Shown: positions 29,051 to 40,340 of the stretch, in pieces
Layout of the letters: each line of letters begins with the position of its first letter
Numbering within the stretch: position 1 is the stretch's first letter
Source of the DNA: Acidobacteriaceae bacterium
GTDB lineage: Bacteria > Acidobacteriota > Terriglobia > Terriglobales > Acidobacteriaceae
NCBI GenBank assembly: GCA_027452245.1
Contig: DAIDGW010000149.1
Span: forward strand, 1-52,811
DNA: 52,811 nt
Direction of reading: 5' to 3'
Position numbers and translations under genes: made by a program
The notes under the pieces: model-generated
Database searches by the model: none
What the model was told of the DNA's origin: nothing
Seen by the model: the letters and a program-made list of their open reading frames with translations, nothing else

Positions 29051-31408
29051 ATGGCGTATCGAACTCCATTGGACTCTTCATCTTCAAATTCCGGTGCGGG
29101 CCCGTTCGTCTATTGGCGGGTGGAGGGCAGTCTTCTCGACCTGACCGTCGTCAAACCGCTCGGCTTTCTTACCTGGAACGCGCAGACATTTGCGGAGCGG
29201 TTCCGGCGCCGCGGGCTGATCTTCCTGATGGCAGCTCTGCGGCCATTTCTGTACTCCACAAACCGGAAATTTGCCACGCGGGTGGTCCACACTGTTTTGC
29301 GCGGCGTCTCGCGAGATCGTCTCGACCTACTGGGTGAAGAATTCTTCCAGTACAAGTTGAAGCCAAACCTGAAACCAAAAGGCGTGCAAAGGGTTAAGGA
29401 GCTGCTTGATTCCGGAACAAATGTCGTTCTCGTGAGCCAGGGTCTGGATCACCTGATGCGTCCGCTGGCCCGGCACCTCGGAGTGAAGTATGTAGTTGCG
29501 AATCGGATGGAGTTTCGCGACGGGCGGGCTACCGGGCGTTTACTTGAGCCTCTGATCCGGCCCCGGGGCGTGCTCGCCAAGATTCGTGAAGATAGTCCGG
29601 ATGGCCTGCGGGCACCGAAGACTTTGGCTCGGCATCTCGATATCCCAGTCGAACAGTTGCACGCCGCCGTTATGCCCGCAGAGCGTCCGCGAGCCGACCG
29701 GGAACGCCCTATTGTTCATTTTGACGGCCAGAGGCCTGCATCGCCACTGTCCGTCCGGAGCGCCTTTGCCGGGAAGCACGTCATGCTGATCGGGGTCACC
29801 GGCTTCATTGGGAAAGTCTGGCTGGCCAATACGTTGCTGGATCTGCCGGAAATTGGCCGTATTTATCTGCTGATTCGCAGGCAAAAATCAAATCCGGCCG
29901 AGAAGCGCTTCGAGAAGATTGTTGAAGATTCGCCGGTTTTTGATCCCCTGTTCGAAAAGTTCGGCACCGGATTTTCCGATTTTGTTCGCGCGAAGGTTGA
30001 AGTCGTGGAAGGCGATGTTTCCCATCCCAGCCTGGGGTTGAGTGCCGAGGTCAGTCGGCGCTTGCAAAACGACCTCGACTTGGTGGTCAACAGCTCAGGA
30101 TTGACGGATTTCAATCCGGACCTTCGCGATGCACTCGCCACGAACACCGACGCTGCCCTGAATATTCTGGAGTTTGTGCGGTCGTCTCATCACGCCGGCC
30201 TTCTGCATCTTTCAACCTGCTACGTCGCCGGAGAACAGGATGGCAGGGTTTCGGAGAAGTTGATCCCGGATTACACGCCCCGCCGCGTGCCCGGGTTCGA
30301 TGCCGAAAAAGAGTGGCAATCGTTGAAGGCGGAGATCCGAAAAGCGGAGGAGCGGGCAGAGAGCGAAGAGGTAACCGCGGAATTGCGGAAGCAGGCTCTC
30401 GGGAAGGAACATGCGGCCAAGGATCTGCAGGGTGCGGCGCTGGACAATCAGATACGAAAGAATCGTGTTCGCTGGCTCAAGACCTATCTGACCGAACTCG
30501 GCACAAAACGCGCCAACGAGTTGGGCTGGCCGAATACTTACACGTTGACCAAAAGCCTGGCCGAATCGCTGATTGCGAAACGCGGAGCGGGCCTGCCGAT
30601 CGCGATTGTGCGTCCGGCGATCGTGGAGACGTCGGTCGCAAAACCCTTCCTCGGATGGAATGAGGGCATCAATACTTCGGCTTCGCTTTCGTATCTGCTG
30701 GGCACGTATTTTCGGCAGTTGCCGTCGAATGAAAGCAAGCGGCTCGACATTATTCCTGTGGATTCGGTTTGCGCGGGAATGACTTTGATCGCTGCCGCCG
30801 TGATGGAGCGCAGGCACGACCAGGTTTATCAGCTGGCAACTTCGGTCGCGAACCCGTGTGATATGGGGCGTTCCATTGAACTTACTTCGCTGGCACACCG
30901 CAAGCACTATCGCGCCCAAGAGGGCCTGGAATCTTGGCTGCGGCTGCGTTTCGACGCGATACCCGTTTCTAAAACCCGTTACAACCGAATGTCGGCGCCG
31001 GCGCAGCGGGCCATCGTGAAATCGATTCAGCGCGTCATGGCGCCGCTGCCGCTTAAGAAGACACCACTCGCCAAAGCAGAGCGCAGTCTGGAACGGGTGG
31101 AAAAACTGATTCAATTGTTTGAGCCCTTCATCCTGCTGAATGAGCACGATTTCGCAGCGGAGAATGTGGAGAAGCTTGACTATGCACTGGTCCCGGAGGA
31201 GCGTGAAATGTTCGCCTACAATACGCGCTCGCTCGATTGGTGGGACTACTGGATCAACGTGCACATTCCTGCGTTACGCCGCTGGACCTATCCGCTGATT
31301 GAAGGACGGCCGCTCGAAGCTCGTCCTCCGCGCAACTTTCAAATTGGACCGGCGAACGGCGATACCGTGAAGACCGGCACGAATGGGGCGACGTGGCGAT
31401 ATTCCTGA
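29051..31408 (+). CDS. Fatty acyl reductase with degenerate N-terminal HAD domain
   Basis: The 785-residue protein has two parts. Residues 19-200 follow the layout of HAD-IB phosphatases, but the first motif DxDGT is replaced by WRVEGS, with Arg23 and Glu25 where the catalytic Asp pair should be. Only the VLVSQG motif (Ser129) survives, and the late DD motif is absent, so it is catalytically dead. Residues 240-785 form a male-sterility/fatty acyl reductase domain: GVTGFIGK (248-255) binds NAD(P)H, and STCYVAG (Ser388) and YTLTK (Tyr497, Lys501) form the catalytic centre. A charged helical insert lies at about 415-480, and a FAR_C-like tail follows. It would reduce an acyl thioester to aldehyde or alcohol. 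It is the first gene of the ten-gene cluster. Confidence 0.87.
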
Positions 31409-32526
31409 CCGGATCGACCGGATACATTGGCGCTCACGTTGCCTCGAATCTGCTGGAGCAGCATGGCGCGGCGTTGAACGTCCTGGTACGCGCAAAAAAT
31501 CCGCGGGAAGCGGAGTTGCGCCTCTGGCAGGCGCTGCAACTCCATCTGGAGTTTCCGCGCTTCTACGAGCACCTGCAGACGAAAGTCCGCGTCTTCTGCG
31601 GCGATATCACCTTGCCCGGATTCGGGCTCGATCGCGATTCCTACGACCGCCTTGTGCACACCACCGATTCGGTCATTCATTGCGCCGCGTCGTTGAATCG
31701 AAAGTCGGAGAAGAGCTGCCTGAATGTGAATCTGCGCGGCACACTGGAAGTTCTGACCCTGGCCCGCAATGCCGAGTACTATCATGGGCTTCGCCGCTTC
31801 AGCGAGGTAAGCACCGTCGCAGTCGCGGGCCGGCGCAATCGGGAACTCGTGACCGAAGATCGCGCCATTGAGTGGGACCGCTCAGACTACGATCCTTATG
31901 CCCGTACCAAGAAATTCTGTGAGCACATGATGCATGTGCTCTTGCCCGATACGCCGAAAACCGTATTTCGGCCGAGCATCGTGCTCGGGGATAGCCGCCA
32001 TCCCGAGACCACGCAATTCGACATGGTGCGCTCGTTTGTCTTCCTTGCCGGATTGCCTCTCCTGCCGTTTCGCCCAACGGACAGGATCGATATCGTCAAC
32101 GTTGATTTCGTGGCCGATGCGATCGCGACGCTGCATCAGAAAGATCAGCCCCGGCACGAGATCTATCACCTTTCGTCCGGCAGCGATTCGCAGAATTTCA
32201 AGCAACTGACCACCGCATTGGCCGCCGCCCAGCAAAAACGTGGGCCGATTTTCGTACCCGTGCTGGAAAAGCCATTCACCGCGGCCGTCAACTTCCTTTC
32301 CAACCGGAAAGGACCTGTCGGCCATGGCGCGTCATTGATGAAAGTCTTCATGCCGTATCTGGTGTGGAACACGGTATTCGACAACACGCGCGTGACTTCG
32401 GAACTAGGCCGCAGGCCGGTGCCCTTTTCGCAGTACAGCTATCCCTTACTGAAATTCAGCCGTGAGAACAATTTCCAATACCGCTATCAGCCGTGGCCGG
32501 CTGCGGTCGGAGGTACAGCCGCATGA
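31393..32526 (+). CDS. Thioester-reductase-like extended SDR
   Basis: The 377-residue enzyme starts at GTG 31393, 16 bp inside the reductase gene, so the two are translationally coupled. It has GSTGYIG (residues 7-13) for NAD(P) binding and the active-site Tyr169 and Lys173 (YARTK). It belongs to the NAD_binding_4 branch that also holds carboxylic-acid-reductase and thioester-reductase domains, though simple lipid-sugar SDRs are an alternative. A late [16 protein letters not shown] segment is typical of the branch. It may complete the reduction begun by the upstream enzyme or act on a carrier-bound intermediate. Confidence 0.83.
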
Positions 32527-33932
32527 TGGATTTTGTTCTGGAGGCATGGGTCAGCAGTTCCATTGAGCGCGCCAAGCTGAAATGGATGCTCGGCGGGGGC
32601 AAGCCTTGGCAGCGCGGCGAGAAGCTGAAACTGCTGTTCGCCGGCTATAACGGCACCCGCAACATGGGATCGGACGTTCGCGTCAATGAGATGCTGCGCC
32701 AGATACGGCACATTCTGGGCTCGGAGCGCGTCGATTTCAGTGTCATGAGCCAGAACTTTGATCTTTCGAAAGGCTATTTTGAGGGATCGAAACAGGTGCA
32801 TTTGCCAGATATCTTTCCGCCGTTTCTGGCCGATGAAGTTCCCCAGCATCACGGGGTGGTGGCCTGCGAAGGATCGATGTTCAAGAGCAAGTTCGCGAAT
32901 GCGCTCACCACGATGATGATTGGCTCGTTGGGAATAGCCGCGGTGCAGAACAAAATTTCCGTGGGCTATGGCGCCGAGGCCGGGCACATGGATCCGCTGG
33001 TTCGTAAGATGTGCGGCCGTTACTGCAAGGAATCGCTGATCATCACCCGCAACGAGGAATCCCGCACCCTGCTGCGGGAACTGGGGATTCCGACTGAACT
33101 CGGCACCGACACAGCCTGGACCTTCGAACCGCTTCCTCCCGAATATGGCCAGGACGTGCTACGGCAAGTTGGCTGGGACGGGCGTACTCCCGTGCTGGTG
33201 GTCTGCCCGATCAATCCCTTTGAATGGCCGGTCCGGGCCTCGGTGGGGAAATACGCGCTGCACACTTTGACCGGCGCCTACAAAGAGAGCCATTACCGCA
33301 CCGTGTATTTCCACAATTCCGGACCGGCGGCCGCCCGAGCATATCAGCACTATCTCATTTCAATCGCAAATGCCGTCGATGCATTCCGAAAGAAGCGCAA
33401 GGTTTTCGTCATTATGGTTGCGACCGAGCGTTTGGACGTGCGTCCGGCGAATCGAATCTCGGAGAAGTTGGGCGGCGTCCCGGTTCTCACCTCCGATCAG
33501 TACGACATGTATCAGGTAGTCAGCATTCTCCGGTCGTGTCACATGATGGCTTCTTCGCGCTATCACGGGATTGTGACCTCGATGCCGGGACTGGTTCCCT
33601 CGGCGGGAATCACCATGGACGAACGGATTCGTAACCTCATGCGCGAGCGCGGACATGAAGATTTACTGATGAACGTCGACGATCCGGATCTGGAATCGAA
33701 GCTGCTGACAGCGCTGGACAATCTGGCGACTAACGGTGAACGCATAGCCGATGGCATTGCGCGAACGGTGGTCAAGAATTTAAAAGTAATGGCGCGTATG
33801 GGCGTTTATTTCGAGGAAGAAGTGCAGCGCCGGTATCCAGCCTTCGGTACGCGCACTGGGGAGTGGAGTTGGCAAGACTATTTGCCTCCGATGAACGCTT
33901 CGCTGCATCAGTTAATAACCGCGTACAATTAG
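32523..33932 (+). CDS. Polysaccharide pyruvyl transferase-family protein
   Basis: From ATG 32523, which overlaps the previous stop as ATGA, the 469-residue product has the polysaccharide pyruvyl transferase pattern: [20 protein letters not shown] early, then a [19 protein letters not shown] segment and a late [19 protein letters not shown] motif. Family members transfer a ketal pyruvate from phosphoenolpyruvate to a sugar, as in CsaB. Here the neighbours are lipid genes, so the acceptor may be a lipid headgroup or lipid-linked sugar. There is no signal peptide or membrane helix, so it acts at the cytosolic face. The next ligase starts 19 bp later. Confidence 0.8.
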
Positions 33933-33951
33933 CGATCTCGTCCTAACCACC

Positions 33952-35601
33952 ATGCCCTTCGTTGGAGAAATTTTCGCGAAGCTACAGGCCTGCGGCGACA
34001 AGACCGTCCTGCAGGAGATCCGGGATGGCCAGATCACTGGAGTCACGGGATCGCAATTGCTCGAACTGGTGCGCAAAGCACGCAGCGTAATTGCCGGCAA
34101 AGGGCTTCAGAAGGGCGACCGCTGCGGGCTTCTCGCCCCCAACAGCATTCAGTGGGTCGCGGCCGACCTCGCCATCCTGGCTGAGGGATTGATCGTAGTG
34201 CCGCTCTATTACCGCCAGTCTCCTGTAGAACTCGTCGCCATGATGAAGGATTGCTCTCCCTCGCTGGTCTGCTACGGAGATGCGAGCCTGGTGGACGGTA
34301 TTCAGCAAGTCTGGCCGGACGCGCCAGCCGCGCTTCGCTTCGACGAAATCTTCGGCCCAGGCGAGCCGGGTTTCGTCGACCGGCCGCAGGTTCGCAATGA
34401 AGATCCGGTGACGATCATCTACACCTCGGGAACTTCGGGGGAATCCAAGGGCGTTGTGCTGACAGCGGCAAACGTTGGCTTCATGCTCGGTTGCACAACG
34501 GAGCGACTGGGATTGTTAATGAAAGACGCTGCCGGTCAGGATCGGATCTTCCACTACCTTCCCTTCAGCTTCGCCGCTTCCTGGATCGCACTTCTCAGCT
34601 TCATTCTGCGCGGAAGCCTGGTCACTCTCAACACTGATCTGACGAAGATCTCTACCGACATGCGCGCAGTCGCTCCCGACTATTTCCTGAATGTGCCGCA
34701 GTTGCTCGAGCGGATGCGCCGGGCCGTCGATGAACAACTCTGGAAAACTGGCGGCCTGGTGCAGGCGGTGTATGCCAATGCTAAAGCTGCATGGGCCCGC
34801 CGCCACGAAAAGAAGCCGAAAACGGGCGATGGAATCTGGCTCTGGCTGGCGAATGCCCTGGTTTTCCCTTCGATCCGCAAGAAAATGATTGGCGCGAATT
34901 TGAAGGCCTTGATCTGCGGTTCGGCGCCGCTAAGTCCGGAAACCCAGCTTTACTTCATGATGCTCGGCATTCGCGTGCTGCAGGTGTACGGCCTCACCGA
35001 GACCACCGCAATTTGCACCATGGACGATCCGCGGCAGGTCGAACTCGGACGGGTCGGGCCGGCGGTCCCCGGGATAGAAATGAAGCTGGGCGAGAATGAT
35101 GAGATCGTCGTGCGCGGGCCAAACGTTTTTCCCGGATATTGGAATCGGCCGCAGCAAACCGCAGAAGTGTTACGCGACGGCTGGTTCCACACCGGTGATC
35201 AGGGAGAAATTGATAGTTCAGGAAACTGGAAGATTGTCGGTCGAATCAAGAATCTTATCGTGCTCGGATCAGGCCACAAGATCTCTCCTGAACCGATTGA
35301 AGACGAGATCATTCGCAATCTTCCGGGAGCGCATCAGGTGGTCGTCGTTGGTAATGGCCGCGGCTACCTTTCGGCAATTGTCACAGGAGGCGTGACCGGT
35401 GAGCAGGCGCAACAAGCGCTAGACCTCGCCAATGCGCAATTGCCTCACTACAAGCAGGTGCGGGCCTTTCATATCAACCCCGACGCTTTTTCAGTCGAAA
35501 ACGGAATGTTGACCGTGAATGGAAAGCTGAAGCGCGATGTGATCTCCTCGCGGATGAAGGACCAAATCGAGCTAATGTACAAGATGAAGCAGGCGGTCTA
35601 G
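33952..35601 (+). CDS. AMP-dependent acyl ligase 1 (long-chain type)
   Basis: The 549-residue enzyme has IIYTSGTSGESKGVVLT, the YGLTETTAICTMD motif, the WFHTGDQGEI nucleotide-binding motif, and a C-terminal catalytic Lys in NGKLKRD. This is the fatty acyl-CoA synthetase type (FadD/FAA1-like), which makes an acyl-adenylate and passes it to CoA or a carrier protein. In this operon it could load the acyl carrier protein encoded 0.85 kb downstream. The start lies 19 bp after the pyruvyl transferase stop. All core motifs are intact. It is not a recent duplicate of the second ligase at 36783; the two are clearly diverged. Confidence 0.9.
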   Translation: MPFVGEIFAKLQACGDKTVLQEIRDGQITGVTGSQLLELVRKARSVIAGKGLQKGDRCGLLAPNSIQWVAADLAILAEGLIVVPLYYRQSPVELVAMMKDCSPSLVCYGDASLVDGIQQVWPDAPAALRFDEIFGPGEPGFVDRPQVRNEDPVTIIYTSGTSGESKGVVLTAANVGFMLGCTTERLGLLMKDAAGQDRIFHYLPFSFAASWIALLSFILRGSLVTLNTDLTKISTDMRAVAPDYFLNVPQLLERMRRAVDEQLWKTGGLVQAVYANAKAAWARRHEKKPKTGDGIWLWLANALVFPSIRKKMIGANLKALICGSAPLSPETQLYFMMLGIRVLQVYGLTETTAICTMDDPRQVELGRVGPAVPGIEMKLGENDEIVVRGPNVFPGYWNRPQQTAEVLRDGWFHTGDQGEIDSSGNWKIVGRIKNLIVLGSGHKISPEPIEDEIIRNLPGAHQVVVVGNGRGYLSAIVTGGVTGEQAQQALDLANAQLPHYKQVRAFHINPDAFSVENGMLTVNGKLKRDVISSRMKDQIELMYKMKQAV

Positions 35602-35622
35602 CGGCAATCGGATTCAAGATCA

Positions 35623-36426
35623 ATGGACAAGTTTAACGGCCAGGCAATTTCATGGACTGTGCAGGCGGGCGTAATTGAACTCTCGCTGCACCGCTCGCCC
35701 TGCAATGAGCTGGGGTCGCTGAGTTTGCAGGAGCTGGAAGACTTTGCCGGCAGCCTGTCGCAATTGGAAAGCAGCGCGCATGCGCTGATCATCTACAGCG
35801 AGTTGAAATCAGGGTTTTGCGCCGGAGCGGATTTGCGCGAGCTATATGAGCGCTCCCAGAAGCTGGAGAAAAAAGAAGCGGTTCGCGGTGTGCGCGATTT
35901 TCTCGAACGTATCCATCGTGTGCTGAATGCGATCGATGCGAGTCCGCTCACGACAATTGCCGCCGTTCATGGCGTTACCTTCGGAGGCGGCTTCGAACTC
36001 GCACTGGCCTGTGATCTGATCCTCGCCGACCGTACGGCCCGCTTCTGTTTCCCGGAGCTTCGCCTTGGCCTCATCCCGGGATTCGGCGGAATTCCTCGCC
36101 TGAAGCGGGATCTCGGCAACAGCGTGGTGCGCGATCTGCTCCTCACCGGACGCAGCTTCAATTCCACGAAGGCGCAACAAGTTGGCCTCGTCAGCCAGGT
36201 CGTCGCTGAAGGTGAGGCATTGCGCGCGGCGCGGGCCACCGCCGCTCAACTCGGCAAGTTTGATCGTGAAACCGCAATCGCTGCCAAGCAATTCATCAAG
36301 CCAATTCCTGATGAAGAATTGCAGCGGGAGATCGACATCTTCTGCGATCTTTTCACAAAGCCGGCCGTGGAGGCGGGCTTGAAGAAATTTGTCGAGAGCA
36401 CGGATGCTCAGCCATACTTACCCTAG
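35623..36426 (+). CDS. Enoyl-CoA hydratase/isomerase-family protein
   Basis: The 267-residue crotonase-fold protein has the oxyanion-hole segment FCAGADLREL and GVTFGGGFELALACD. Both acid residues of true hydratases are present: Glu125 in GGGFELA and Glu145 in CFPELRLG. It should hydrate a trans-2-enoyl thioester or shift its double bond. A hydratase beside two reductases, two ligases and a carrier protein suggests that the cluster modifies the fatty chain as well as reducing its carboxyl end. It is 21 bp after ligase 1 and 27 bp before the carrier protein. ATG 35623 is the clear start. Confidence 0.9.
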   Translation: MDKFNGQAISWTVQAGVIELSLHRSPCNELGSLSLQELEDFAGSLSQLESSAHALIIYSELKSGFCAGADLRELYERSQKLEKKEAVRGVRDFLERIHRVLNAIDASPLTTIAAVHGVTFGGGFELALACDLILADRTARFCFPELRLGLIPGFGGIPRLKRDLGNSVVRDLLLTGRSFNSTKAQQVGLVSQVVAEGEALRAARATAAQLGKFDRETAIAAKQFIKPIPDEELQREIDIFCDLFTKPAVEAGLKKFVESTDAQPYLP

Positions 36427-36453
36427 TTCGGATTGATCAAATTGGAATTCAAG

Positions 36454-36696
36454 ATGCCCATGACCGACCAGACACTCGATGAAATCATGAATTTGGCAGC
36501 GGCTCACTTCAAGGTGCCGCGCGAAAACCTGAGTCCCGACGAGGACTTCTTCAAAGCCCTGGGAATTGACAGCCTGCAAACGCTGGACCTGCTCACGCGG
36601 CTGGAACACCACTTTCGCGTCGAGTTGCCGGATTACGAGTTGCAAGGCGTCAGCGACTTCAGGACCCTGGCCGCCAAGATCCAGGCGCGTTTGTAG
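36454..36696 (+). CDS. Stand-alone acyl carrier protein
   Basis: The 80-residue product from ATG 36454 is acidic and helical, with the 4'-phosphopantetheine attachment Ser40 in ALGIDSLQTLDLL. An in-frame TTG at 36433 or ATG 36460 are alternatives. ACPs of primary fatty acid synthesis usually lie beside fabD/fabF, which are absent here. Its place between a hydratase and a ligase marks it as a pathway-specific carrier. It is the anchor that makes the cluster look like a dedicated assembly route. Confidence 0.92.
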   Translation: MPMTDQTLDEIMNLAAAHFKVPRENLSPDEDFFKALGIDSLQTLDLLTRLEHHFRVELPDYELQGVSDFRTLAAKIQARL

Positions 36697-36782
36697 GATG
36701 TTTGGCAAGCATGCGAGTAGCCCGCTGATAAACACCGTTGGCCGTCCGGGTTAGCCTCTCTCTATGATGAAATAGATAGTTC

Positions 36783-38492
36783 ATGCTCGATCTCCGCCAA
36801 TATACCTGTCTGGGCGCGGCCTTGCGCGATGCCCTGGATCGCTTTGCGGGCGAGGTCTGCCTGATTGAAGCGGATCGTGATCGAGAAAAGACGCGGCTGA
36901 CCTATTCTGATTTCAAGGAGATTGCGCTGCCCCTTACGCGCGCTCTGGAAGACGCCGATTTCGATCCCAACGATCGCGCCGCCATCATCATGACGAACCA
37001 GTCGAAATGGCTGATCTCCGCGTACGCCGTTTTCTATTGCGGCGGCGTGCTGGTCCCGATCGATTACAAGCTCACTCCGGCTGAGCACCTTCAACTACTG
37101 GCGCATTCCCAGGCCAAAGTACTGGTTGTCGAGTATCACCTTTGGCGCGCAATTACCCAATCGCCGGAATTTGCCAACATCAAAACGAAAATTGTTCTGG
37201 TAACGGAAGCACCGCTCGGCGCGGATTTGGCCGGCGCGTTTCGCTGGGAGGATTTCAAGCGCAAAGGCACACCCGATTTTGTAATGCGGCAAAAGGATGA
37301 CGTCGCCTGCATCGTCTACTCCTCCGGAACCGGGGGGCGGCCCAAGGGTTGTGTCCTGACTCACGAAAATTATCTTGAGCAATGCATCGCTCTTACCGCC
37401 TGGTATCCCTTCTGGCCGGGAGTGCGGTATCTCAGCATCTTGCCCACGAATCATGCCATCGATTTTATGGTCGGATTCATCGGCCCATTCGTGTGCGGGG
37501 CCTGCGTCGTGCACTTGAGAACGCTGCGCCCGGAGTTCGTGCGCGACGCATTCGTGCGCTATCGAATCACCTACGTATCCCTGGTTCCGATGATCGTTAA
37601 AAATCTGGAACGCGGGCTGCGGGCGAAGTTTGATGAACTGCCGGGTTGGAAGCGCTTCTTTCTCGATCGCATGATCGGCTTGAACCGAGCACTGACGCGC
37701 CGCCGACCCCACGTCAAGCTGAGCCGCTCGCTGTTACCCCAGGTGCATCGCGGTTTTGGAGGCGAGTTGCTGGCGCTGATTACGGGCGGCGCCTTCATGG
37801 AACCATCGGCCATGCAGTTTTTTTACGACCTCGGCGTACCGGTGGTGAATGGTTATGGTCTGACCGAAGCCTGCACGGCGCTGACTCTCAACGATCTCAA
37901 GCCGTTTCGCGCGGATACCGTTGGCAAACCTCTGCCCGGAGTCGAATTGCGCATCCTGAATCCCGACAGGGAAGGGGTTGGCGAAGTTGCGGTGCGCAGC
38001 AAGAGTGTGATGTCGCACTATCTCGATGATCCTGAACTCACCCTCGAAACGATTGTTGATGGCTGGCTGCTCACGGGAGATCTGGGCCGATTCGAAGGCC
38101 ACGGGCACCTGCAGTTGCTGGGCCGCAAGAAGAACATGATCGTGACGGAGGGCGGGAAAAATATTTATCCCGAAGACATCGAAACCGTGTTCGACGGCCT
38201 CCCGGTGAAAGAATACTGCATTTACGCCGCGAACTACCTCTGGCCGCGGAAAGAACTAGGCAAAGAAATGCTGGTGATCGCCGTGCGGCTCCAGGAAAAA
38301 CAGAAGTTCGACGCCAAGCTGCTGGAAGATATCATCGCGAGCAATCGCCGCCTCCCCGATTTTAAAAGAGTGGGCGGATATCTCATCTGGGAGAAAGACT
38401 TTCCACGCACGGCTTCGATGAAGGTCAAGCGGCAAGTCCTTGCGGAAGAGATTGGCAAGACAACTGAGCGGACATCAGTCGTGTCGCTTTGA
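36783..38492 (+). CDS. AMP-dependent acyl ligase 2
   Basis: The 569-residue enzyme has [20 protein letters not shown], the [12 protein letters not shown] motif, a [19 protein letters not shown] segment and [19 protein letters not shown], plus a C-terminal Lys in ASMKVKRQ. The KNIYPEDIE motif is common in ligases that work with carrier proteins. It is placed 86 bp after the ACP gene and is diverged from ligase 1, so the two probably activate different acids, or one loads CoA and the other the ACP. The start ATG 36783 has a weak ribosome site. Length is normal. Confidence 0.88.
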
Positions 38493-38518
38493 GAATCCTC
38501 TGAACGAACAGCGAGCCA

Positions 38519-39421
38519 TTGGCAAAATCATTCCTTGCAATCGTAAATCCGGCGGCCGGAGGCGGCAAGAGCCGTAAGCTGCTTGGCCCGGCGCTCGAGC
38601 GGCTCAAGGCTGGAGGCATCAAAGTTCGCATTGCTGAGACCAGCGGGCCCGCTGACGCTACCAGAATTGCCCGCGAAGCCTACCGCTCCAGCGAGCGCAA
38701 CTTCATCGCCGTCGGCGGCGACGGCACTTCTTTTGAGATTCTGAATGGGCTTTTTCCCGAAGCTGCGGCCGGCGCACCACCGACGCTCGGGTTTCTTCCG
38801 CTGGGAACAGGGAATTCTTTTCTGCGCGATTTCAGCGACCGCGGCGTGGAACATGCGATCCAGGCGCTGCTGGCATGTCGAAACCGGAAATGCGACGTCC
38901 TGCGCCTTCGTCATCGAGACGGCGTCATCCATTACATGAACCTGCTGAGCATGGGCTTCACCGCCGATGTCGCCACTCTGCGCTCACGGCGTTTCAGTGG
39001 CTGGGGAGAACTGGGTTACATCATCTCGATATTTCTCACGTTGGCGCGATTCAATCGCCGCCCGTTTCCCATGCGAGTTGAACAGGATTCGAACCTGGAT
39101 CGCCGCCCCTGCCTCTTTCTCACTTTCAACAACAGCAAATTCACCGGCGGCACGATGATGATCGCTCCTAAAGCCGAAGTGGACGATGGCCGGATCGAAT
39201 ATGTCCGCTGGGGACCCATCGGGCGGCTTGGACTGATCCGCAATCTCCCTGGCCTATACGACGGAACCCACATTCAACACGTGCTCGCCGAGTGCAAAGC
39301 CGTTCACAGCGTAGATTTCGAACTCCCCGCTCCGGTCGATGTCATGGTTGACGGGGAAGTCCTCACGCTGCATTGCGAGCGCCTGGATGTGCTTCCGGGT
39401 GCTTTGAATGTCGTGGCCTGA
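38519..39421 (+). CDS. Diacylglycerol/sphingosine-kinase-like lipid kinase
   Basis: The 300-residue protein has the DAGK-catalytic pattern: NPAAGGGKSRKLL near the start, AVGGDGTSFEILNG (the GGDGT motif) and PLGTGNSFLRDF, and a C-terminal DVMVDGEVL segment. It is of the soluble DgkB/YegS type and would phosphorylate a lipid alcohol such as diacylglycerol, an alkylglycerol or a long-chain base. The start is TTG at 38519, 26 bp after ligase 2; no ATG is available at that position. In context it could phosphorylate the product of the reductase steps. Confidence 0.9.
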   Translation: MAKSFLAIVNPAAGGGKSRKLLGPALERLKAGGIKVRIAETSGPADATRIAREAYRSSERNFIAVGGDGTSFEILNGLFPEAAAGAPPTLGFLPLGTGNSFLRDFSDRGVEHAIQALLACRNRKCDVLRLRHRDGVIHYMNLLSMGFTADVATLRSRRFSGWGELGYIISIFLTLARFNRRPFPMRVEQDSNLDRRPCLFLTFNNSKFTGGTMMIAPKAEVDDGRIEYVRWGPIGRLGLIRNLPGLYDGTHIQHVLAECKAVHSVDFELPAPVDVMVDGEVLTLHCERLDVLPGALNVVA

Positions 39422-39441: not shown

Positions 39442-39870
39442 ATGTCGGATGCGAGGCGCAAACGTCAACAACAGCGAACGGGCGTGAAAGAGCCCAATCC
39501 CAATACCCGCAAACATGCCATCTGGTTCGGCATTGTCGTGCTGGTGGCCGCAGCATATTTCGCCGGCTGGTACCACCAGAACCACAAATACGACGCTTTT
39601 GCCCGGTGCCTGGCTTCCAAAAACGTCAAGATGTACGGTCTCTACTGGTGCCCGCACTGCATGGACCAGAAAGCCATGTTCGGGAAAGCTTTTGAATATG
39701 TCCCCTACCAGGAGTGCGCGATCCGCGGTTCGCGCGAGATGGCGCCGGCCTGTGTGGCCGCGGGAGCCAAGAACTTTCCCAGTTGGCAGTTTCAACCCGG
39801 AGGCAAGCTGCAGGAAGGGGTTGAGCCCCTCAGCGAAATCAGCGATAAGACAGGGTGCTCCTTGCCATGA
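39442..39870 (+). CDS. Membrane-anchored thioredoxin-like protein
   Basis: The 142-residue protein has a short cytosolic basic N-terminus, one membrane helix (about 26-42, WFGIVVLVAAAYFAGW) and a thioredoxin-like domain outside. The active site is CPHC (Cys70, Cys73) with a FPSW cis-Pro region. It has a further Cys pair at 92 and 104. It would oxidise or shuttle disulfides in the periplasm. Its stop overlaps the start of the VKOR gene (ATGA), which is the typical VKOR-plus-thioredoxin pairing. It lies 20 bp after the lipid kinase, so it may be cotranscribed with the lipid cluster, but the link may be only positional. Confidence 0.88.
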   Translation: MSDARRKRQQQRTGVKEPNPNTRKHAIWFGIVVLVAAAYFAGWYHQNHKYDAFARCLASKNVKMYGLYWCPHCMDQKAMFGKAFEYVPYQECAIRGSREMAPACVAAGAKNFPSWQFQPGGKLQEGVEPLSEISDKTGCSLP

Positions 39871-40340
39871 ACAATTCTCCCGCGCTTTCAACTTCGTCTG
39901 GTTCAGCCGGAAATCCGTTACGGCTAGTCTTCGCGGTAATCGCCGTTCTTGCCGTCGCCGGTATTCTCTTATCGGCGGTCGCGCTGCAGCGTCACTATGC
40001 AAAATCGGCAACGAACTTCTGTGAGTTCAGCCAGAAGTTCAACTGCGACATCGTCAATCGCAGTGAGTATTCCAGTATTCTCGGGATCCCGGTTGCCGGA
40101 ATTGGGGTCGTCGGATACGGCTTCTTGCTGTTCCTCAGCGCATTCTGGCGCGACCTTCGAGAAACTCCGCTGCGTCTCTTAGTCGCATCCTTCGCCGGAT
40201 GGGGTTTCGCGCTGTACCTCACCTACATCGAAGCCCGCGTTCTGGAAGCCTGGTGCGTGCTCTGCCTGGCATCGCTCGCGATTATCACCATAATTGCCGC
40301 GCTATCGATCATTGTGCGGGTGAAATCGCCCAATCCTTGA
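39867..40340 (+). CDS. VKOR-family membrane disulfide oxidoreductase
   Basis: From ATG 39867 the 157-residue protein has four membrane helices and all four essential cysteines: Cys52 and Cys60 in the first loop (NFCEFSQKFNCDIVNRSEYS) and Cys130/Cys133 in AWCVLCLASL. It oxidises the thioredoxin-like partner and passes electrons to a quinone, the DsbB-like job. Acidobacteriota commonly use VKOR rather than DsbB (general knowledge, not shown here). It is the last plus-strand gene of the cluster and converges on the GT-C-like gene. Confidence 0.9.
   Translation: MNNSPALSTSSGSAGNPLRLVFAVIAVLAVAGILLSAVALQRHYAKSATNFCEFSQKFNCDIVNRSEYSSILGIPVAGIGVVGYGFLLFLSAFWRDLRETPLRLLVASFAGWGFALYLTYIEARVLEAWCVLCLASLAIITIIAALSIIVRVKSPNP

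Follow-up and report, generated by a model that had tools for sequence, protein, structure and literature searches.

The subject of this report is a cluster of eight genes, g1 to g8, on the plus strand (29051-39421) of a 52,811-nucleotide stretch of DNA, here called the window, which is contig C149 (DAIDGW010000149.1) of a 6.23-Mb Acidobacteriaceae genome in 274 contigs that is 97.6% complete. The cluster is a real, conserved and specific unit, and its core is homologous to parts of the elb ether-lipid locus, in a new arrangement. It is about an even call whether these genes constitute an ether-lipid-type operon related to elb, in which the functions of the multidomain protein ElbD reside on separate proteins; an alkyl-ether or other reduced phospholipid, possibly a membrane-spanning one, would be the best-supported product. 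The gene set and its order, the homologies, the catalytic motifs (in the reductase part of g1, in g2 and in g4-g8) and the loss of HAD motifs are established at the level of sequence. No earlier description of the eight-gene cluster was recognised in the portions of the literature available to us. Genomes, contigs, loci and families are designated below by G, C, L and f numbers.

A conserved gene order

A preliminary description of this DNA listed eight plus-strand genes with no gap above 86 bp, two overlaps and a set of domains, all of which are borne out by calls of open reading frames (ORFs) and by Pfam: the eight ORFs are intact, the intergenic gaps run from 6 to 86 bp, genes 1/2 and 2/3 overlap, and the Pfam domains of g1-g8 each score above their own curated cut-off. 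The eight genes probably form one operon; a scan for promoters and terminators was uninformative, giving counts comparable to those in shuffled sequence.

Gene order recurs in relatives, and the cluster is therefore not a product of chance. A scan of named genomes with a g3 profile turned up 294 relatives, of which the best 80 loci were kept and the other 214 set aside; all 80 are titled as metagenome-assembled genomes (MAGs), under names such as Acidobacteriaceae, Candidatus Sulfotelmatobacter, Terriglobia and Acidobacteriales. Counting only the loci at which a pair was testable, neighbours are kept together at 75/75 (g1-g2), 80/80 (g2-g3), 77/77 (g3-g4), 68/69 (g4-g5), 65/68 (g5-g6), 60/63 (g6-g7) and 56/58 (g7-g8), the exceptions being L080, L090 and two rearranged loci, L111 and L118. 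The full set was found at 55 of the 80 loci, and many of the others are short contigs. Were the dedicated unit proposed in the preliminary description illusory, dispersal of its genes would be expected, and none was seen in the window's family, where g3 occurs in 70 of 250 genomes; it is also found in 10 of 11 genomes of family f70. Across a sample of 297 genomes of the phylum g3 has ten matches, the tenth of which (G131) is weak and is not the cluster, leaving nine cluster genomes. Eight further neighbourhoods were read: five hold all eight genes (L031, L032, L033, L036 and L038, with g8 cut off in the last), and L035, from f70, has no g8 in the stretch read. Three further families also have the cluster, either entire or divided into two parts. 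In G132 (f60) and G062 (f37) the genes g6-g7-g8-PlsC sit on a different contig from the first part, which is g1-g4 in G132, with no g5 orthologue in the stretches read, and g1-g5 in G062; f70 loci have ketosynthase III or other genes inserted in the cluster.

Gene 1, gene 7 and the elb locus

The first gene (g1, 29051..31408, +) encodes a degenerate ElbB-like HAD domain fused to an ElbD-type fatty acyl reductase (NAD_binding_4 plus Sterile), as judged from Pfam, orthologues and a structural match. The preliminary description was right about the reductase, the domains of which are present, and overlooked the HAD domain at the N-terminus (residues 44-181, 29180..29593, +; E 2.7e-16). Seven aligned ElbB-type proteins retain FYDLEGT, FYDLDGT or FFDLDGT together with a DS-x-SDLP motif. 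At the motif I site just ahead of the Pfam match (residues 22-27) g1 reads WRVEGS, or WRAEGS in L035, with the Asp nucleophile replaced by R in 9/9 copies; the DS-x-SDLP motif is missing from the same nine, and motif IV is absent. Residues W22, R23, E25, G26 and S27 are invariant in 39 sequences, as are, in the reductase half, the NADP Rossmann motif TGFIGK and the YxxxK residues Y497 and K501. Judged by its motifs, the HAD half would be a dead enzyme that has been retained, perhaps for a structural role. The structure model of g1 (pLDDT 75.8) has as its best solved match the rice fatty acyl reductase DPW (7eoz), which fits thioester reduction.

When g1 was searched over the 297 phylum genomes at E<=1e-30, matches were returned from 44, comprising nine near-full-length orthologues and 35 matches to the reductase part alone. 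Frames of 1442-1809 aa contain 32 of these 35; the other three are shorter (G131, G095, G188), two of them, in G095 and G131, belonging to elb loci that are split. The one long protein that was checked with Pfam, at L042, carries NAD_binding_4, Sterile, AMP-binding, PP-binding and Acyltransferase domains and has HAD, Lar_N and epimerase genes nearby, the layout of ElbD and the elb locus as given in the parts consulted of PMC9131029 and PMC9426513. With g1 residues 1-230 as query, the best genome-wide match in 8 of 12 elb genomes is an ElbB-type HAD gene within ~5 kb of an ElbD-type reductase, which is ElbD itself in G025, G086, G075, G267, G283 and G204 and a split reductase in G095 and G131; in G243 the match is to a gene on a different contig, in G008 a weak match elsewhere scores better, and G140 and G156 have none. 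The best match of g7 (36783..38492, +), the second of two AMP-forming acyl ligases (AMP-binding), is the ElbD ligase domain in 9 of the 12 (not in G283 or G095, and with no match in G131), and in a small midpoint-rooted tree g7 groups with ElbD-type ligases, apart from g4. Homologues of the DAGK-type kinase are found in five of eight elb neighbourhoods of ~19 kb, and the g6-g7-g8-PlsC unit of G132 and G062 equals the last three functions of ElbD plus a kinase. From the HAD-half and g7 matches to elb genes it follows that the cluster resembles an elb-like module in separate pieces, to which, as far as sequence can tell, g3, a second ligase, a hydratase and a second reductase would have been added as new parts. 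A search of the window's genome with g1 gave, at E<=0.001, no match besides g1 itself, and thus no ElbD; in each of the other cluster genomes the check scored three candidates. One of the split elb clusters, L045 6780-16102 (G095), holds DAGK, epimerase, reductase, Lar_N and HAD genes and a PlsY-like gene (this last named by eye), with a divergently oriented homologue of the tetraether synthase Tes adjoining.

The partly consulted literature is informative on how far such homology can be taken. Disruption of elbD in M. xanthus strongly reduces ether lipids, and the reductase activity of ElbD itself was not seen in vitro (both PMC9131029, in the sections consulted), and in Pontiella, which carries genes of the ElbD type, no ether-bound lipids were detected, according to the portion consulted of PMC11868695. 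Given the Pontiella case and the in vitro result, homology to ElbD is insufficient proof of ether lipids. The likeness to myxobacterial ether-lipid genes drawn in the preliminary description holds for the homology to ElbB and ElbD parts, and the ether product itself is a proposal.

The other genes and their partners

Gene 2 (31393..32526, +) encodes a thioester-reductase-like short-chain dehydrogenase/reductase (SDR) with NAD_binding_4 and, by alignment, an intact YxxxK; it shares ~23% identity with the SDR proteins at L041 and L045. An identification as ElbE is unsupported, since in Pfam NAD_binding_4 ranks ahead of Epimerase for g2 and the epimerase-type gene of L042 shows the reverse. A reading as an Ole head-to-head hydrocarbon system was likewise set aside, its sole OleD match being g2 at 23.7 bits.

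Gene 3 (32523..33932, +; alternative start 32493) is of the PS_pyruv_trans family, with a conserved S-R-x-H-G. Its start is probably the ATG at 32523, which overlaps the g2 stop as ATGA, because in the relative L050 the reading frame is interrupted by a stop ahead of that position. It scores 34.8 bits against the PS_pyruv_trans cut-off of 25.3 and falls far under the CsaB equivalog cut-off (56.8 vs 213.1), and a sequence search of the PDB gave no match at E<=1. The model of g3 has a GT-B fold with sugar epimerases and glycosyltransferases as best structural matches, PimA and MGD1 being among the matches listed; no solved pyruvyltransferase is in that list, which excludes nothing. Pyruvylation may accordingly be regarded as one option only. 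A second, diverged g3 homologue (~34% identical) lies away from the cluster in G062 (L145 8488-10074, contig C148).

The fold of g3 also bears on a somewhat unlikely alternative, that g1 and g2 make a fatty alcohol which then enters a wax ester, or a glycolipid by way of g3 as lipid glycosyl- or pyruvyltransferase, with no glycerol ether. It is consistent with PimA and MGD1 among the structural matches and with a fatty acyl-CoA reductase (7eoz) as the best solved match of g1. FarA-type reductase domains are moreover described outside ether-lipid pathways in the part consulted of PMC11948995, a point that equally counts against an ether product. Set against this, the nearest g1 homologues in the phylum sample are ElbD-type, with the HAD partner common to both, and relatives link the cluster to Tes and PlsC.

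Gene 4 (33952..35601, +), the first AMP-forming acyl ligase (AMP-binding), is by alignment 26% identical to g7, in agreement with the two diverged ligases noticed earlier. Gene 5 (35623..36426, +) belongs to the enoyl-CoA hydratase family (ECH_1) and retains both Glu residues, which we take to be the crotonase catalytic motif; as had been stated at the outset, both are there, and the pair is invariant in 7/7 aligned copies. Gene 6 (36433..36696, +), with a start perhaps a few codons further in, encodes an acyl carrier protein (PP-binding) with a DSL motif, and g8 (38519..39421, +) a DAGK/YegS-type lipid kinase (DAGK_cat plus YegS_C), the catalytic domain of which is present with GGDGT invariant in 6/6 aligned copies.

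Lack of an acyltransferase or ketosynthase inside the cluster, also part of the preliminary description, holds in the window and fails in some relatives, where the kinase gene has PlsC after it in G235, G132 and G062 (it is on another contig in G275 and G291) and ketosynthase III lies between g5 and g6 in G291 and G275. Queried with the PlsC of G132, the genomes G235, G062, G275 and G291 yield orthologues 64-76% identical, and four genomes tested of the window's family yield paralogues only (29-34%). That ketosynthase, with the conserved Glu pair of g5, gives some support to the idea that g4, g5 and g6, joined in some relatives by ketosynthase III, hydroxylate or in another way modify an acyl chain destined for a signalling lipid or a lipid of the outer membrane, with the reductases finishing it, which is decidedly unlikely: it leaves the ElbB/ElbD homology, the kinase and PlsC unexplained, and G132 keeps g1-g4 and g6-g8 in the stretches read without g5.

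Linkage to Tes is found in several relatives. A 726-aa gene ~0.15 kb upstream of g1 in G023, on the same strand, matches GDGT-MAS/Tes (PDB 7tol) at E 1.7e-60, and same-strand homologues occur 0.2-4.8 kb upstream in G132 (~4 kb), L078, L087, L088, L100, L107, L121 and L123; that of L098 is upstream on the opposite strand. Of the 80 MAG loci, 47 extend more than 6 kb upstream of g1, among them L098 and six of the seven same-strand Tes loci (not L087). In the 297-genome sample Tes lies within ~10 kb of a g1-type gene in 3 of 44 genomes (G023, G132, G095), is somewhere in all nine cluster genomes, and is present in 43 of the 44 genomes with a g1-type gene (G131 being the miss) vs 123 of the 253 others (Fisher p 2e-11, from hand counts that ignore kinship). 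Upstream of the cluster in G132 (C85, L140 2489-12186) one strand carries genes for a ligase-carrier-acyltransferase, a radical SAM protein, the Tes homologue, a second radical SAM protein and a crystallin-like protein. The first of these, in effect ElbD minus its reductase, was considered as a specific Tes neighbour, an idea weakened by the two ligase-carrier-acyltransferases that the window's genome has outside its cluster.

Among the flanking genes, g9 (39442..39870, +; a small CPHC-motif protein with no Pfam match) and g10 (39855..40340, +; VKOR family by Pfam and locus comparison) are probably co-transcribed and non-core. Both are present at 54 of 56 loci having 2 kb past g8, they remain with g7-g8 in the rearranged loci L111 and L118, and they are possibly a split VKOR-thioredoxin pair. 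MFS- and gluconokinase-like flanking genes (named by eye) recur only partly among the 80 loci, the former at 22. In G084, which belongs to the same genus as the window's genome, a myo-inositol-1-phosphate synthase gene (L031 15459-16898) immediately precedes g1; it was rejected as a cluster partner, being found at no other of the 80 loci.

A proposed pathway and known systems

We infer all activities, the order of substrates and the ether product. One plausible sequence of events is that g7 would load a premade, perhaps iso-branched, acyl chain onto the carrier g6, after which g1, with its dead HAD half perhaps as scaffold, and/or g2 would reduce the thioester to an aldehyde or alcohol. The reduced chain could then enter an alkyl linkage to a glycerol backbone by a further step with no assigned gene in the cluster, an acyltransferase of the PlsC type, whose gene is linked to the cluster in some other families, might complete the lipid, and g8 would phosphorylate the neutral lipid for entry into phospholipids; g3 may modify the head group by pyruvyl or sugar transfer, and g4 and g5 may shape the chain.

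A number of observations weigh against an ether-lipid role. No Lar_N (ElbC-type) gene is found by Pfam among the eight, g2 is not clearly ElbE, and in the small tree a stand-alone 910-aa ligase-carrier-acyltransferase on C105 of the window's genome is closer to the ElbD ligase than is g7. We know of no lipid data for any carrier of the cluster, all 80 kept loci being MAGs. The Tes gene of the window's genome is not near the cluster but on C132, where its neighbours include a gene that by eye looks ftsZ-like; 31 listed genomes of the window's family have Tes and only four of them the cluster. With Tes in 166 of the 297 phylum genomes and the cluster in nine, the notion that the two always travel together was dropped. 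A DUF2229 protein, DUF2229 being what we take to be the PlsA/Ger-type domain, is encoded in the window's own genome as well as in G132 and G062. It is highly unlikely, in our estimation, that PlsA/Ger-type enzymes make the ether bonds in these bacteria and the cluster serves another purpose; that proposal draws on the DUF2229 proteins and on PlsAR, put forward for Solibacter, without ElbD, in the part consulted of PMC10087280, and faces their detection in only three of the nine cluster genomes tested.

Branched tetraethers are used to reconstruct the temperature and pH of soils in the past, and their producers and ether-bond enzymes are only partly known (PMC10087280, PMC8941075 and PMC11868695, as far as consulted). 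An elb-like module that is conserved among uncultured Acidobacteria of soils, and linked to a Tes homologue in some lineages, is a concrete and testable gene set that could help explain how these organisms make the robust membrane lipids from which climates of the past are read, and a taken-apart ElbD would permit each step to be assayed as a single protein. Membrane-spanning ethers as product are a bold but testable extension: the cluster would be the missing ether-forming pathway for branched tetraethers (brGDGTs or their precursors with both ether and ester bonds) in those uncultured Terriglobales of soil and peat that show no ElbD, making alkyl-ether phospholipids that a Tes homologue, adjacent or distant, joins tail to tail and g3 furnishes with an unusual head group, which on present evidence is unlikely.

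Parallels with known systems, drawn for elb from ElbD-type proteins of the phylum sample rather than from M. xanthus sequences, are instructive. Like the elb operon of M. xanthus (ElbA-ElbE), the cluster has an ElbD-type reductase with Sterile, an acyl ligase, a carrier and an ElbB-like HAD domain, PlsC is linked to it in some relatives, and DAGK is found in several acidobacterial elb neighbourhoods. Unlike that operon, it places on separate proteins the reductase, ligase, carrier and acyltransferase that ElbD fuses, its HAD domain is itself fused and without catalytic motifs I and IV, Lar_N and acyltransferase genes are absent from the eight, and g2, g3, g4 and g5 are extra. Tes/GDGT-MAS (7tol) has a homologue in every one of the nine cluster genomes of the 297-genome sample, and in several relatives one lies close to the cluster, yet in the window it is not part of the cluster, and many cluster-free genomes have it. 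The PlsA/Ger glycerol ester reductase route would share the kind of product, an alkyl or alkenyl ether, but uses different protein families, with DUF2229 not found in six of nine cluster genomes. The MXAN_1674-1676 operon (AGPS route), in the part consulted of PMC9131029, similarly brings FAR-like and SDR genes together, whereas the eight genes, to which the search was confined, include no alkylglycerone phosphate synthase.

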